A DNA stretch of 64,000 nt from Oceanimonas aquatica. GTDB taxonomy: Bacteria > Pseudomonadota > Gammaproteobacteria > Enterobacterales > Aeromonadaceae. Under the pieces are notes generated by a model. That model had not been told where the DNA came from, searched no databases, and saw only the letters and a list, made by a program, of their open reading frames with translations. The translations under genes were made by a program, and so were the position numbers. The stretch's first letter is position 1. Each line of letters starts with the position of its first letter. The stretch lies in the NCBI RefSeq assembly GCF_030732065.1, contig NZ_JAVBHX010000009.1, positions 1 through 64,000 on the forward strand, given 5' to 3'. Shown piece after piece: positions 29,306 through 51,204 of the stretch.

Positions 29306-30006
29306 GGTGCCTCCATGGGCGTGGTATCGCCCCCCAGCCGTTCAAATTCGGCGCGGCTGACCGGTTCAAAACGGACCCGGTCGCCCACTCGCAGCAGGCT
29401 CAGGCTTTGGCTGGCGGGATCAAACAGAGTTGCCGGGGTGCGCCCCAGCAGGTTCCAGCCACCGGGGGTAGCGCGGGGGTAGGCGGCGGTCTGTCGGCCC
29501 GCCAGGGCCACACTGCCGGCAGGCACGTGCGGGCGGGGGCTTTCAAGCCGGGGCGTTTCAAGCTGCTCGGGCAGGGTGCCCATAAAGGCAAAGCCGGGGG
29601 CAAAGCCCAGCGCAAATACCCGGTAGGTATGGCCGCTGTGCAGCTCAATCACCCGCCCGGCACTCAGGCCGGTATGCTGTTCCACCCGGGCCAGATCCGG
29701 CCCCACGCTGGGGTGATACCACACCGGCAGGGCCTTTACCTCGTTCTGCGAGTTGTCTTCCAGCGGCGCGAGCCTGGCCAGCAGGGTTTGCAGCAACTGG
29801 CGGGCCTCGCCGTGATCAAGCGTGAGCGGATCGAACTGCACCAGCAGGGTGGTGTAGGATGGCACCAAATCCACCAGGTGGTCGCCAAAGGCACCCTCGC
29901 AGTCCTGCACCAGGGCGGCTATCCAGTTCATGTTGGCTTCGTCGATGTCGTCGAACAGCCGCACCAGCCAGGCGTCGAAGCCGGCGTTTTCCAGCCTGGG
30001 GTTCAT
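29302..30006 (-). CDS. pxpB: 5-oxoprolinase subunit PxpB
   Basis: 234 residues of the KipI/YbgJ family. [46 protein letters not shown] and [13 protein letters not shown] are characteristic. The start is the ATG overlapping the pxpA stop (ATGA); a longer in-frame stretch inside pxpA is not used. It partners PxpC. Confidence 0.92.
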
Positions 30007-30749
30007 GCCGGGCCGTCCAGCATGCGGCGAATGGCGGCCACGGCGGCAATGGACTCGGGGTTGTCGCCGTGCACGCACAGGGTATGGGCGATGAGCCTGA
30101 GCGGATTGCCGTCTATGGTCACCAGCGGCTCACCGGTGGCAATGCGCCGGGCCTGCTCGACGATCACCTCGGGGGCATGATGCACGGCGCCGGGCCGGCT
30201 GCGTGGCACCAGAAAGCCGGCGGCGTCGTAGGCGCGGTCGGCAAAGGCCTCAAACCACAGTGGTACGCCGTGCTCATTGGCCAGAGCCTGTGCTGGCTCT
30301 GGGTTGGCAGTGGCCATCAGCATCAGCGGCAGGCCGGGGTTAAAGGCCGCCAGGGCGCGCATGACCGCCGCCAGAATGGCCTCGTTTTGCATCATGTCGT
30401 TATAAAGGGCGCCGTGGGGCTTCACGTAATGCACTTGCGTGCCTTCGGTCCGGCAGATGGCGTCGAGCGCCCCCAGCTGGTAGAGCACCAGGTTCTCCAC
30501 CTCGGCGGGCGAAACAGCCAGGGAGCGGCGGCCAAAACCCACCAGATCCGGGTAGGCGGGATGCGCCCCCACTCGCACGCCGTGCGCCTTGGCCAGGGCC
30601 ACGGTGCGGCGCATGGTGTCGGGATCGGCGGCATGAAAGCCGCAGGCCACATTGGCCAGATCCACAAAGGGCATGACCGCCTCGTCCTGGCCCATGGTCC
30701 AGGGACCAAAGCTTTCTCCCATGTCGGCGTTCAGCAGCAGTGTGGCCAT
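30003..30749 (-). CDS. pxpA: 5-oxoprolinase subunit PxpA
   Basis: 248 residues of the LamB/YcsF family. The start [19 protein letters not shown] is diagnostic, followed by [34 protein letters not shown] and [11 protein letters not shown]. It is the 5-oxoproline-activating subunit. It is first of pxpA-B-C, with AAGGAAG before the ATG. An FtsZ-like gene lies 85 bases upstream on the same strand. Confidence 0.94.
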
Positions 30750-30834: not shown

Positions 30835-31617
30835 TTATTCTGCGTTTTGCCTCAGAAAGGCCGGCACGTCGAGATATTTACTGTCTGGTGAGGGCTGCTT
30901 GTCGTCCGCACGCTGAACGGGCAGGCTGACCTCTTCCACCACAAAGCAGCCAACACGCATTGGCTCGTTCTCGTGGGCGAAACGGATGGAGCTCACCTGC
31001 CAGCCGTCCGGCTCCAGGTTGCGGAAGTAGCTCGCGGTGGCGTTAAAGTCTTCAATGCCGGTGCTGAGGTGCATGGTCAGCACCGCCAGCACGCTGATCC
31101 GCTGGCTTGAAAAACAGGCATTAAAGCTTCGGCTCAGGTAGCCGGGCAGGCTGTCGCTGTTCAGGCCGTCTTCCCCGGCGCCGCTGTGGTAGCGGGCCAT
31201 GCCCTTGCCGGAGCAGAGCACGGTGCGAAGGTCTGCAAAGTCGACCCCGATTAGGCTGGGGCGGGTCACCGGCTCGGTGAGATCCCGCAGCAGCGGCGAA
31301 TACTGCTCGGGACAAGCCAGGATCAGGCAGTCGGCCCATTCTGCCAGCGCCGCTCTCAGCTCGGCCGGGCTGTCTGGCGGCAGCACCGCCAGGCAGAGCC
31401 CGGTGGTGGCTGTTTGAGCGGGCAGCAACGGCAGGTCGGCCCCGGTGGGTGCCAGCACAATCACCATGTCCGCCGGGCTGTTGCTGCCATCATCGGGCAG
31501 CCGGGTGTGGTGACGAATGCAGTTCATGGCCAGAGGGCCGAGGGGCAGGTTCTGCGGGTTGAACAGGGCGATCACCGGATCTGTAAAGTCGGCGTCAAAG
31601 GACTCAAAAGCGGGCAT
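30835..31617 (-). CDS. Degenerate FtsZ-like protein with intact FtsZ C-terminal peptide
   Basis: 260 residues. The chain follows the FtsZ fold: ADMVIVLAPTG (49-59) aligns with the segment before the GTPase signature, GLCLAVLP (73-80) with TVAVVTKP, WADCLIL (94-100) with the VDSLIT strand, and SLIGVDFADLRTVL (121-134) with the T7 loop. But GGGTGTG is absent and the T7 asparagine is G124, so GTP hydrolysis is not expected. The end YLDVPAFLRQNAE (248-260) nearly equals the tail by which FtsZ binds FtsA, ZipA and other partners. The start has AAGGA eight bases upstream. Possibly co-transcribed with pxpA-B-C. Confidence 0.75.
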   Translation of the reverse strand: MPAFESFDADFTDPVIALFNPQNLPLGPLAMNCIRHHTRLPDDGSNSPADMVIVLAPTGADLPLLPAQTATTGLCLAVLPPDSPAELRAALAEWADCLILACPEQYSPLLRDLTEPVTRPSLIGVDFADLRTVLCSGKGMARYHSGAGEDGLNSDSLPGYLSRSFNACFSSQRISVLAVLTMHLSTGIEDFNATASYFRNLEPDGWQVSSIRFAHENEPMRVGCFVVEEVSLPVQRADDKQPSPDSKYLDVPAFLRQNAE

Positions 31618-32018
31618 GGTATTTTCCTTGTGAGGTACTTGCCGGAGGCACATTTGTTCAGAAGGGGTTGAACGGCTTATCGCCCCGTTTCGAACAGGAA
31701 GGAGTCAAATATATCCTTTTCGGCGGTTTCATCGTCAAGCCCGGGCAATGTAAAGACTATTGCCAGCGGGCGGATTCCGATTATGATATGCGCTCATTTT
31801 AACCAAGAGGTCCGGCCCAACGCCGGTGTACGATATGGACTGCTCGCGAAGTTGCTTGCAACACGCTGTTAATCATTCATTTTCCTGCCTTTCTCCGCTA
31901 TTTCTGGCGTCCTCCGTTTTGTTCCGACCCGCTCGCTGCCGTGGCTATACTCACGTTGCCGGCCTGGCGCGCGTGATTCGCTGATCCGCACCACCACATT
32001 CTCTCAACGAGGTAAAAC
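31618..32018. other. Divergent intergenic region
   Basis: A 401-base gap with no open frame I trust. Two small stems are visible on the plus strand: CCGGC/GCCGG near 31812-31828 and GTTGC/GCAAC near 31851-31863. The plus strand therefore may carry a long structured leader for the TerC/CBS gene. It does not match the manganese (yybP-ykoY) riboswitch core found before some TerC genes. Confidence 0.4.
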
Positions 32019-33551
32019 ATGGAATTCCTGATGGATCCGTCTGTGTGGGCGGGTTTGCTGACACTGGTTATTCTTGAAATCGTACTGGGTATCGACAACC
32101 TGGTATTTATTGCCATTCTGGTGAAAAAACTGCCGCCTCATCAGCGCGACAAGGCGCGGGTCATTGGCCTGAGCCTGGCGCTGATTATGCGTCTGGCGCT
32201 GCTCAGCGTGGTGTCGTGGCTGGTGACGCTGACCACACCGCTGATCACGCTTGGGGAGTTCAGTTTCTCCGGGCGGGATCTGATCCTCATGGCCGGGGGT
32301 CTGTTTCTGCTGTTCAAGGCCACTTCCGAGCTGCACGAGCGGCTGGAAGGCAAGATGCACGAGGAAGAAACCAGCACCGTTTACGCCGGTTTTGGGGTGG
32401 TGATTGCCCAGATCCTGGTGCTGGATGCGGTATTCTCGCTCGACTCCATTATTACCGCCGTGGGCATGGTCGACAGCCTGGCGGTGATGATGATTGCCGT
32501 GGTGGTGGCCATGGTGGTGATGCTGGCGGCTTCCAAGTCGCTCACCGACTTTGTGAACGCGCACCCCACGGTAGTGGTGCTGTGCCTGAGCTTCCTGCTG
32601 ATGATCGGTTTCAGCCTGGTGGCCGAGGGCTTTGGTTTCCATATTCCCAAGGGCTACCTTTACGCCGCCATTGGCTTCTCGATTCTGATCGAGTTCTTCA
32701 ACCAGCTGGCCCAGCGTAACAAGGTGCTGCAGGAAGCCCACCGGCCCCTGCGGGAGCGCACCACCGACGCCATTTTCCGGCTGATGGGCGGCAAGGACAA
32801 AACCGAAGACGAGGCGCAGGAGAGCACGCAGCAAACCGAGCAGCAGGGCTTTGTGGAAGAAGAGCGCAACATGATCAGCGGCGTGCTGTCGCTGGCCGAG
32901 CGTTCCATTCGCACCGTAATGACCCCGCGTTCCGACATTGTGTGGCTGGACGTGAACGACACCCGGGAAGAGCAGGTGGCGGAGCTGATGGCCTCGTCTC
33001 ACAGCCAGTTTCCGGTGTGCGACGGCGAACTCGACAACCTGCTGGGCGTGGTGCGGGCCAAGGATCTGATGGCCGGCCTCAAGGCGGGCAAAACCCTGGC
33101 CGAGCTGGCCGAAGGCGGCGCGCCCATTATTGTGCCCGACAGCATCAGTGTGATCCGGCTGCTCAACGTGCTGCGCGACGCCCGCGGCAACATGGTACTG
33201 GTGAACGACGAGTTCGGCACCGTACAGGGCCTGGTAACCCCCCACGATCTGCTGGAAGCCATTGTCGGCGAGTTTCTGGATGAAGACGAAGACCCGGAAG
33301 TGATCACCGAAGACAACGGCTGGCTGGTGAAGGGCAGTACCGATCTGCACTATCTGGAGCAGGTGCTGTCGCGCAAGGGGCTGGTGGATCCGGACGACGA
33401 ATACGCCACCCTGGCGGGCATGCTGCTGGCGCTGGCCGGTCAGCTGCCGGAAGCCGGCGCCGTGTTTGAGCACGAGGACCTGCGCTTTGAGGTGACCGAA
33501 GTGGAAGACTTCCGCATCGCCCAGGTGCGGATTACGCCACTGGCCGCCTGA
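32019..33551 (+). CDS. TerC family membrane protein with CBS and CorC/HlyC domains (YegH/YoaE type)
   Basis: 510 residues. The N-terminal half is a TerC-type membrane domain with the two acidic motifs [15 protein letters not shown] (about 20-34) and [16 protein letters not shown] (about 138-153). A CBS pair follows (about 295-420, with [15 protein letters not shown] and SQFPVC) and a CorC/HlyC domain ends the protein ([15 protein letters not shown]). TerC relatives handle metal ions, especially manganese efflux; the role of the YegH/YoaE subgroup is not established. It is monocistronic with its own terminator. Confidence 0.88.
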
Positions 33552-49100: not shown

Positions 49101-50177
49101 TTACTGCTGACGTTGGCGCAGAAAGGCGGGAATATCCAGTCCTTCCTGGGCCGGCTGACTTTCCGTCTGCTCGGGCTGCGGTGGCTGCACCGGCGCTATG
49201 GTCTCTTTCGGGGGCTGAATGCCGGTGGCGATCATGGTGACCTGAATGCTGTCGGTCAGATCCGGATCCAGGGTGATGCCCGAGACCACGGTGGCGTCTT
49301 CGCCCACGCACTCGGCCACCCGGTCGCCAATTTTCTGAAAGTCGTCGAGGCCGATGTCCATGGAGGCGACCACGTTCAGCAGTACGCCCCGGGCCCGCTC
49401 CAGCTCCACCTTTTCCAGCAGCGGGTTGTTCAGGGCCTGCAGGGTGGCGTCTTCCACCTTGTTGTCGCCCTTGGCCAGGCCAATACCCATCACCGCCTTG
49501 CCCTGCTGGCTCATGATGGTGCGCACATCGGCAAAGTCGATGTTAATCAGGCCGGTCTGGCCAATAATGTCGGCCAGGCCGCGCACCGCGTTCTGAATGA
49601 CCTTGCTGCTTTCGGAAAAGGCCTTGAGCAGGGGCGTGCGAGCGCCCAGCACCCGCAGCAGGTAGTCGTTGGGTAGCACCAGCAGGGCGTCGGTGTGCTC
49701 GGCCAGGGTATCGAGGCCGAGCTCGGCCATTTGGGCGCGCTTTTTGCCTTCAAACCCAAAGGGGCGGGTAACGATGGCCACCGTCATGATGTTCATGTCC
49801 CGGGCGAGGCGGGCCACCACGGGGGCTGCGCCGGTGCCGGTGCCACCGCCCATGCCGGCGGTAATAAAGCACAGATCCGCGCCCTGCAGGCGGGCGCGAA
49901 TGTCGTCTTCACTTTCTTCGGCCGCCTTGCGCCCCACCTCGGCTTCGGCGCCGGCGCCCAGGCCCCGGGTCAGCTCCCGGCCCAGTTGCAGGGTTTCTAC
50001 CCGGCATTGCTGCAGGGCCTTGGCGTCTGTGTTCATGGCCATGGTACTGACATGGGCCGGCAGGCTGTGATCGGCCAGCAGGTTAACGGTGTTGCCGCCG
50101 CAGCCGCCCACGCCCACCACGCTGATGCGGATGGTGTCGCAGTCGGGTTCGGCGGGCTCAAAAAGGAACTGATCCAT
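49101..50177 (-). CDS. FtsZ paralogue with intact GTPase motifs, outside a division cluster
   Basis: 358 residues, against 383 in E. coli FtsZ. VVGVGGCGGNTVN (20-32), MNTDA (48-52), GGGTGTG (110-116) and the catalytic T7 loop GLINIDFADV (209-218, with N212, D214, D217) are all intact, so it should bind and hydrolyse GTP and polymerise. The linker is only about 25 residues, and the tail LDIPAFLRQRQQ (347-358) matches the partner-binding peptide. The start (MDQFLFEPAEPDCDTIR) and neighbours differ from the dcw-cluster ftsZ, so I infer an extra copy. It lies behind a WYL regulator, with a terminator between. Confidence 0.88.
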   Translation of the reverse strand: MDQFLFEPAEPDCDTIRISVVGVGGCGGNTVNLLADHSLPAHVSTMAMNTDAKALQQCRVETLQLGRELTRGLGAGAEAEVGRKAAEESEDDIRARLQGADLCFITAGMGGGTGTGAAPVVARLARDMNIMTVAIVTRPFGFEGKKRAQMAELGLDTLAEHTDALLVLPNDYLLRVLGARTPLLKAFSESSKVIQNAVRGLADIIGQTGLINIDFADVRTIMSQQGKAVMGIGLAKGDNKVEDATLQALNNPLLEKVELERARGVLLNVVASMDIGLDDFQKIGDRVAECVGEDATVVSGITLDPDLTDSIQVTMIATGIQPPKETIAPVQPPQPEQTESQPAQEGLDIPAFLRQRQQ

Positions 50178-50241: not shown

Positions 50242-51204
50242 TTATTTGAGGGTTTTCAGTGATTCCGGCGCCAGGATTTCTACCTTGCCGGCCATATCGG
50301 TCAGCCAGCGACGAAATTCGGGCGAATCTTTCACGTCGGTTTCCACCATCATGCTTTGCTTGTCATAACGGGTCAATCGGGGATTGTGGCCCGGAATGGT
50401 CTCTTCCAGCAGGGAGCGGCTCGGGTTGGCGATGCGGCCCACGAAATGAATGGTTTCCGCCTCTTCCTGATAGCCCTTTTCGCGGATCAGCTTGTGCACG
50501 CTGAATTCACGGGGCTGGGTGACCGGCCGGCTGGTCAGCTCCACGTCCTTGATGTGCTCAAAGGGAATGCCGTAGATCTTGGGATCCATGTCCGACACGG
50601 TGCACAGCAGCATGGGGCCGTCTTTACGGGTAACGATGCCGAGCGGGTTCACCTGCTCGTAGCGCAGCCAGACGGTGCGGCCCTTGATCAGTCGCTTGAT
50701 CTCGGCGCTGAACTTGCGGCCCCGCCACAGGGCGTCGCGAATGGTGGTGGCGCGGCGCATTTCCGGGCTGCCCGGGAACGGCTTGGGCAGCTGCACCACG
50801 TTTTCCATCCAGCGGCTGGCCAGCTCGCTCTGGCTGTCGTTAATGACCTGGGTCGCCTTGTCGATGATGGGATTGAGTTCGGTCAGCACGCTGGCTGGCA
50901 ACAGATCGGCGGCCTGGTCGTTCCAGGTCTTGAGCGCCATGGCCAGGCCCAGCGGCATAAAGTTGGCGAAGTCGTTCAAACCATTGCGTTCGAAACACCA
51001 GCCGTGGGGTTTGCTACGATCATCCGAGGTCAGATCGAACAGGCCCATGCCCGACATTTCTTCCAGATCCCGCTGTACGGTCCGCAGGCTGACCTGAATT
51101 CCTTCTTCTTCCAGTTTTTCTTGCAGCTGGCGCGCGGTCAGCTTGTATGGACGATAGGGAACACAGCGCGCCAGGGTCAGTTGTCTCAGCAGTTTCTTAC
51201 TCAT
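50242..51204 (-). CDS. WYL-domain transcriptional regulator
   Basis: 320 residues. The N-terminal DeoR-type helix-turn-helix (TARQLQEKLEEEGIQVSLRTVQRDLEEM, about 23-50) is followed by a WYL domain (VWLRYEQVNPLGIVTRKDG, about 175-193) and its C-terminal extension. WYL regulators sense ligands or nucleic acids and often control DNA-damage or anti-phage loci. It lies directly upstream of the ftsZ paralogue on the same strand, behind a 371-base gap. Confidence 0.85.
   Translation of the reverse strand: MSKKLLRQLTLARCVPYRPYKLTARQLQEKLEEEGIQVSLRTVQRDLEEMSGMGLFDLTSDDRSKPHGWCFERNGLNDFANFMPLGLAMALKTWNDQAADLLPASVLTELNPIIDKATQVINDSQSELASRWMENVVQLPKPFPGSPEMRRATTIRDALWRGRKFSAEIKRLIKGRTVWLRYEQVNPLGIVTRKDGPMLLCTVSDMDPKIYGIPFEHIKDVELTSRPVTQPREFSVHKLIREKGYQEEAETIHFVGRIANPSRSLLEETIPGHNPRLTRYDKQSMMVETDVKDSPEFRRWLTDMAGKVEILAPESLKTLK

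Follow-up and report, generated by a model that had tools for sequence, protein, structure and literature searches.

The protein P0001, encoded on the minus strand of a 64,000-nucleotide stretch of Oceanimonas aquatica DNA (contig NZ_JAVBHX010000009.1, positions 1 to 64,000; the whole stretch is called the window), has in common with canonical FtsZ (TIGR00065; Pfam Tubulin PF00091 and FtsZ_C PF12327) the predicted fold, the H7-T7-H8 element, the T7 aspartates and the C-terminal peptide, whereas the nucleotide motifs and the T7 asparagine are missing and the chain is about 120 residues shorter than the FtsZ of the host (378 aa). Part of the chloroplast protein ARC3 is a degenerate FtsZ as well. 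SulA, MciZ and the phage proteins Kil, Gp0.4 and Icd are short FtsZ antagonists, some of which act at the T7 or C-terminal face of FtsZ (SulA and MciZ do so, for Icd it is predicted); they are small, are not FtsZ folds and, unlike P0001, lack an FtsZ tail. ARC3 is reported to bind FtsZ and to inhibit its assembly (PMC5471200); being eukaryotic and containing MORN repeats, it is likened to P0001 by description only. Diverged proteins of the FtsZ superfamily that typically co-occur with FtsZ, as P0001 does, have been described as FtsZl1 and FtsZl2 (PMC2875224). According to this source FtsZl2, unlike P0001, keeps all nucleotide motifs and carries an extra C-terminal region of ~300 aa, while in FtsZl1 the GTPase half can be aligned and the T6-H7 elements are unidentifiable (PMC2875224). 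P0001 shows the reverse, with a degenerate GTPase half and with H7-S10 and the tail kept.

We consider it plausible, if somewhat short of probable, that P0001 is a pseudo-FtsZ, i.e. a copy of canonical ftsZ cut down to a non-GTPase FtsZ fold which would act, without polymerising itself, on the division machinery by mimicry. This reading combines a fold known by prediction and the loss of the GTP motifs with the retention of the T7 aspartates, of T7-H8, of the C-terminal peptide and of a leader of its own. P0001 is new within the known FtsZ superfamily. The literature matches listed (titles and beginnings of abstracts, with the subscription literature mostly outside this scope) contain no description of a P0001-like protein, and we know of no bacterial pseudo-FtsZ that retains the tail.

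Fold, lost GTPase site and retained surfaces

The gene and its parts are as follows (window positions).

31617..30835, minus strand: pseudo-FtsZ gene P0001, open reading frame of 260 aa
31210..31266, minus strand: T7 loop and start of helix H8, TRPSLIGVDFADLRTVLCS, residues 118-136, with Asn to Gly at 124 and Asp126 and Asp129 kept
30877..30930, minus strand: short linker from the globular domain to the tail, about residues 230-247, with low pLDDT (predicted local distance difference test score) from about residue 231
30838..30876, minus strand: FtsZ-type C-terminal peptide YLDVPAFLRQNAE, residues 248-260

The predicted structure is a two-domain FtsZ fold with H7 between the domains, extending from residues 13 to 230. 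The FtsZ fold put forward in the original prediction is borne out by this model and by a tail-less profile of P0001 and two orthologues from another genome (G005), which scores 61 against 33 FtsZ1 sequences and 73 against 62 diverse FtsZs, the maxima of 100 column shuffles being 22.0 and 21.7, respectively; a relationship to FtsZ is thus present outside the tail. Nearly all of the signal is held by residues 108-150, which by themselves reach 60 (FtsZ1) and 69 (diverse FtsZs). The stretch 236-260 by itself gives 42.7 and 26.7, residues 150-235 by themselves give 11 versus a shuffle maximum of 19 with the FtsZ1 profile, and the post-T7 stretch of all six pseudo-FtsZ rows scores 24.5, a figure that has no shuffle baseline. 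A Pfam scan of P0001 returned no family at E≤10, and the only NCBIfam match is TIGR00065 ftsZ (E 0.0011, 18.4 bits), which covers residues 112-148 only and does not reach the curated cut-off of 295.2 bits. In a sequence search of solved structures FtsZs are the best matches (3.2e-5), via residues 110-156 and the tail. Because nearly all of the sequence signal outside the tail lies in residues 108-150, the earlier statement that P0001 can be followed against FtsZ almost throughout rests on the structure: it stands for the fold and falls for the sequence alone.

The loss of the GTPase site, likewise proposed beforehand, is evident from the sequence motifs. The T4 tubulin signature GGGTGTG is absent, PTGADLPLL coming after the ADMVIVLA strand, and in our own reading of alignment and model P0001 has lost or replaced the segment from S2 to H3, the T4 signature and the region T6-H6. 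In the T7 loop, SLIGVDFADL, the motif NxDFAD has become GVDFAD, so that Asn is changed to Gly and both Asp are retained. No column of a 30-row alignment (A2) is invariant other than those of Asp126 and Asp129, which align with D209 and D212 in E. coli FtsZ. Residues 121-136 are identical to host FtsZ at 10/16 positions, as opposed to 30/129 over the whole C-terminal half. The T7 asparagine is gone in all six pseudo-FtsZs, being replaced by Gly in P0001 and in the proteins of genomes G016, G019 and G022, by Val in the first copy of G005 (G005a) and by Ala in the second (G005b). Judged from the sequence, the conservation of T7-H8 suggests that P0001 may touch FtsZ filaments, or proteins binding the T7 face, besides competing for the partners of the tail.

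The tail is near the canonical C-terminal peptide, as had been noticed, with 9/13 residues identical to host FtsZ and a DYLDIPAFLRKQAD-like end. A chance match was rejected on the binomial probability of at least 9/13 identities (4e-4 at 22% and 1e-3 at 25% identity). Recent gene conversion from host FtsZ is unlikely as well: the third base differs in 5/9 of the codons for identical residues, and the tail is therefore not a recent copy. At the position of Ile374 of E. coli FtsZ, P0001 has Val. The I374V variant of E. coli FtsZ is described as insensitive to MinC-C/MinD and still sensitive to SlmA, with the binding of ZipA and FtsA kept, as its authors infer (PMC4117426).

Proposed action on the division machinery

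The T7 loop of one FtsZ subunit is reported to insert into the GTP pocket of the next subunit (PMC8456036). The T7 side of P0001 would dock on the nucleotide face of a subunit of FtsZ, or of the second FtsZ encoded in the window (FtsZ2, see below). With the T7 face kept and the nucleotide face lost, the simplest inference is that P0001 may cap the filament at the end where the nucleotide is exposed. Without the catalytic Asn such a cap would leave the GTP unhydrolysed, and assembly of the Z-ring would be damped or reshaped. Membrane anchors are described to bind FtsZ via its C-terminal peptide (PMC8669495), and the peptide of P0001 may bring the protein to ZipA and FtsA, perhaps also to SlmA, or may compete for them. 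The roles suggested originally, as a decoy, as an adaptor or in co-assembly with FtsZ, are likewise putative. Val at the Ile374 position suggests a possible escape of P0001 from MinC; the host genome has both ZipA and MinC. Should P0001 bind FtsZ, it would constitute a natural single-ended FtsZ subunit and a probe of which filament end grows, and would serve as a tool for studying the role of the tail without polymerisation and the retuning of division by gene duplication.

The main rival explanation, which we rate as rather unlikely, regards P0001 as a decoy or sponge that soaks up phage or host inhibitors of FtsZ, so that the real FtsZ escapes. T7-H8, the C-terminal half and the tail, i.e. 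the surfaces retained, are those that FtsZ inhibitors may grip; the tail would be dispensable for such a task, except where the inhibitor attaches to it. FtsZ is the target of the phage proteins Gp0.4, Kil and Hdi, and Icd of phage P1 is predicted by the authors to bind T7-H8 and H10-S9 of FtsZ with N207, D209 and D212 (PMC11897509), but the Asn of this predicted contact is lost in P0001. Gp0.4 is reported to sequester FtsZ, and the FtsZ-bound Gp0.4 to be sensed by a defence protein (PMC13423816). If P0001 sponges phage proteins, it would represent a new kind of protection for a division protein.

Relatives, selection and the genomic site

With a profile built from P0001 and its five relatives we searched the 23 genomes that make up the genus-level Oceanimonas/Oceanisphaera/Zobellella group. 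Six pseudo-FtsZ proteins are present in five of them: P0001 in the host genome (G000), two tandem copies in G005 and one protein each in G016, G019 and G022. The last three are 19-25% identical to P0001, and in hhalign comparisons with the P0001/G005 profile they score 52.3, 47.5 and 38.5, respectively (shuffle maxima 20.7, 16.2 and 24.5; 15 shuffles each). Against FtsZ1 the G019 protein matches clearly (49.2 versus 17.6), the G016 protein slightly (24.9 versus 19.0) and the G022 protein hardly (21.9 versus 21.0). P0001 is thus the link between the pseudo-FtsZ group and FtsZ.

In 75 genomes of the family there is one further, weak candidate, a 238-aa protein of another genus (G030, E 0.0011), which scores 25.5 versus 14.2 with the P0001/G005 profile and 16.6 versus 19.0 with FtsZ1 (15 shuffles) and has no Pfam FtsZ match. 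It is located directly after a Cas_NE0113 protein (L096 4805-6700), with a weak PADLOC match to RmrT (E 0.003). At E≤1e-9 the A1 profile matched 2/394 genomes of the order (G000 and G005), in a sample that cannot have included G016, G019 and G022, and the G016 protein had one match in 295 genomes of the order, namely P0001. With the G019 protein 10 out of 369 genomes of the class were matched at E≤1e-4: G000 by P0001 and its FtsZ, eight genomes by 372-436-aa frames taken for ordinary FtsZs, and the fragmented genome G620 by a 216-aa frame. A scan of named genomes with P0001 gave no match. No significant match was obtained in Pfam or in PHROGs (best E 0.11) for P0001, G005a and the G016, G019 and G022 proteins, nor in PADLOC for P0001 and the G016, G019 and G022 proteins. 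Descent of P0001 from a phage or plasmid was rejected, since none of 50,697 phage and 72,556 plasmid records was matched by tblastn at E≤0.01; a foreign origin is also countered by a base composition equal to that of host FtsZ (63.7% versus 63.1% GC). Viral contigs matched neither P0001 nor the G016 protein. In G019, by contrast, the gene itself has a GC content of 36.4% and is thus AT-rich.

The surroundings of P0001 comprise the following features.

30749..30003, minus strand: pxpA (5-oxoprolinase subunit A type), next downstream of P0001 with a gap of 85 bp; marker of the syntenic site
32019..33551, plus strand: TerC/CBS-type gene, divergent from P0001; marker of the other side of the site
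31708..31738, minus strand: candidate promoter TTGACG ... TATATT with a spacer of 19, its position kept in the G005 copies (alignment A3)
31678..31696, minus strand: leader block TGTTCGAAACGGGGCGATA, common to P0001 and both G005 copies (alignment A3)

The names pxpA and TerC/CBS-type are those which we take to apply from the appearance of the sequences. The decoy explanation draws on the neighbours of two distant relatives, as the G022 copy adjoins two GmrSD proteins and a WYL regulator and the G016 copy an SNF2/ResIII helicase, a GIY-YIG protein and a WYL regulator, and on the patchy distribution (5/23 genomes) and fast evolution of the pseudo-FtsZs; P0001, in contrast, lies between TerC-type and pxpABC-type genes outside any defence island and is without a PADLOC or PHROG match. 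One scanned neighbour of the G019 copy (233 aa, L034 10807-11505) and a 282-aa protein beside the G016 pseudo-FtsZ (L036 8630-9475) have no Pfam or PADLOC match. Taking the family together, it is possible, although doubtful, that a dedicated pseudo-FtsZ evolved from FtsZ in this free-living gammaproteobacterial clade: a Z-ring plug with its GTP site lost, with the T7 face and, in this species, a tail bearing the MinC-resistance residue, and with tail-less relatives at other loci, two of them near defence-type genes, which would perhaps be sponges for phage inhibitors.

Several observations weigh against mimicry of FtsZ by P0001. Residues 1-105 by themselves score 17 with the FtsZ1 profile, versus a shuffle maximum of 25.9. 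An FtsZ-type tail is encoded in 0/5 relatives, and orthologues without a conserved tail were one of the outcomes that the original prediction had named as refuting it; a tail-based role therefore cannot be general. Between the two G005 copies the ratio of replacement to silent substitution rates (dN/dS) is 1.01 (39.5 replacement and 12.5 silent differences), a value in keeping with decay or with diversification. P0001 adjoins pxpABC-type metabolic genes, with no division genes beside it. Finally, the group contains 22 pxpA loci (in 20/23 genomes), 12 of which are flanked on their other side by the TerC-type gene, and at 10 of these 12 no pseudo-FtsZ was found by tblastn with the P0001 and G005 proteins in the ~1.5 kb upstream of pxpA (none below E 0.1; the sole match listed comprises 11 residues, E 0.88, in G019); the gene is present in G000 and G005. 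This distribution fits both an old gene that was often lost and a gene spread by recombination between species.

The empty sites and the G005 copies, which end before the tail, are also what would be expected if P0001 were the relict of a duplicated ftsZ, once functional and now decaying, with the tail as its last recognisable piece. G005a ends after VQEAKRP, and behind two stop codons the same frame reads LYLDQPSFLSRAGK, a clear relic of the tail, which shows that the ancestor shared by P0001 and G005 had the tail and that G005 then lost it; G005b and the G016, G019 and G022 copies have no recognisable remnant. We regard this explanation as unlikely, and decay suits G005 better than P0001. 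Between P0001 and the two G005 copies dN/dS amounts to 0.39 and 0.42 at a dS of 1.24-1.35, the body of all three is an open frame, the promoter-like and leader sequences are conserved, and T7-H8 and the tail are much better preserved than the remainder. For the same genome pair dN/dS is 0.038 for FtsZ and 0.055 for FtsZ2. In silent divergence P0001 resembles FtsZ (1.38) and stays under the value for FtsZ2 (2.41), which is what vertical descent would give. The claim that selection has kept the tail applies to the P0001 lineage (9/13 in the tail versus 30/129 in the C-terminal half) and not as a general rule; the comparison of sequences supports a tail that was probably retained selectively in this lineage, with no constraint across the family.

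Of the differences between the tandem copies of G005 (L004 294-1010 and 1483-2199) the C-terminal half holds 35.5/39.5 of the replacement and 9.5/12.5 of the silent ones; this clustering may mean that gene conversion acted on the first half or that the second half has diversified. Parts of a duplicated pxp region, namely a truncated pxpA piece (L033 7534-7965) and then a pxpC-like piece, precede the first copy, which looks like a local rearrangement accompanying the tandem duplication.

The ATG of P0001 at 31617 is preceded by a ribosome-binding-like AAGGA and matches the start of the G005 orthologues in the alignment; an alternative in-frame ATG is found at 31653. Coding on the plus strand in the frame of P0001 is ruled out by stop codons. 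A consensus promoter scanner reported no site at 31708..31738 and missed the TTGACG/TATATT pair. With up to 2 mismatches allowed, the leader block occurs in 7 genomes solely upstream of P0001 and of the G005 pair, while a backward control pattern matched twice; with up to 3 mismatches it has its sole site in the window here (0 expected). Its role may be that of an operator or of an RNA leader.

The second FtsZ of the window

The host genome (3.45 Mb, 24 contigs) contains three FtsZ-related genes, P0001, the 378-aa FtsZ on another contig and FtsZ2, which is listed here with the gene preceding it.

50177..49101, minus strand: FtsZ2, 358 aa, GTPase motifs intact, tail GLDIPAFLRQRQQ; a possible partner of P0001, separate from its gene
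50242..51204, minus strand: regulator-like gene directly upstream of FtsZ2, Pfam WCX at E 4.3e-5

FtsZ2 is 49% identical to host FtsZ (174/353) and 92-93% identical to the FtsZ2 of three Oceanimonas species. It is encoded in 23/23 group genomes, with GGGTGTG, NIDFAD and an LDIPAFLR tail. In the other 52 family genomes the A1 profile, which is weak as a probe for this protein, did not detect it at E≤0.01. In a 36-row tree its six rows form one clade (100/100) on a long stem (3.14), adjoining the gammaproteobacterial FtsZs with weak support (80/87). That P0001 is a clade-specific modulator of FtsZ2, encoded 18 kb away, rather than of FtsZ is very unlikely, for although FtsZ2 and confirmed pseudo-FtsZs were found only in this genus-level group among the 75 family genomes, FtsZ2 is found in all 23 group genomes as opposed to five for the pseudo-FtsZs, and P0001 is nearer to canonical FtsZ in sequence and tail. 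A derivation of P0001 from FtsZ2 is also less likely.

The regulator-like gene, presumably of the WYL type, precedes FtsZ2 on the same strand in 23/23 genomes with a gap of 19-75 bp, taking the start of the longest frame. With an intact-motif FtsZ2 in every group genome searched the clade suits the study of FtsZ diversification, and FtsZ2 is perhaps of greater interest than the pseudo-FtsZ. In one group member (G012) the canonical FtsZ is split over two frames (L048 923-2061), likely by an assembly error, because FtsZ is usually essential.
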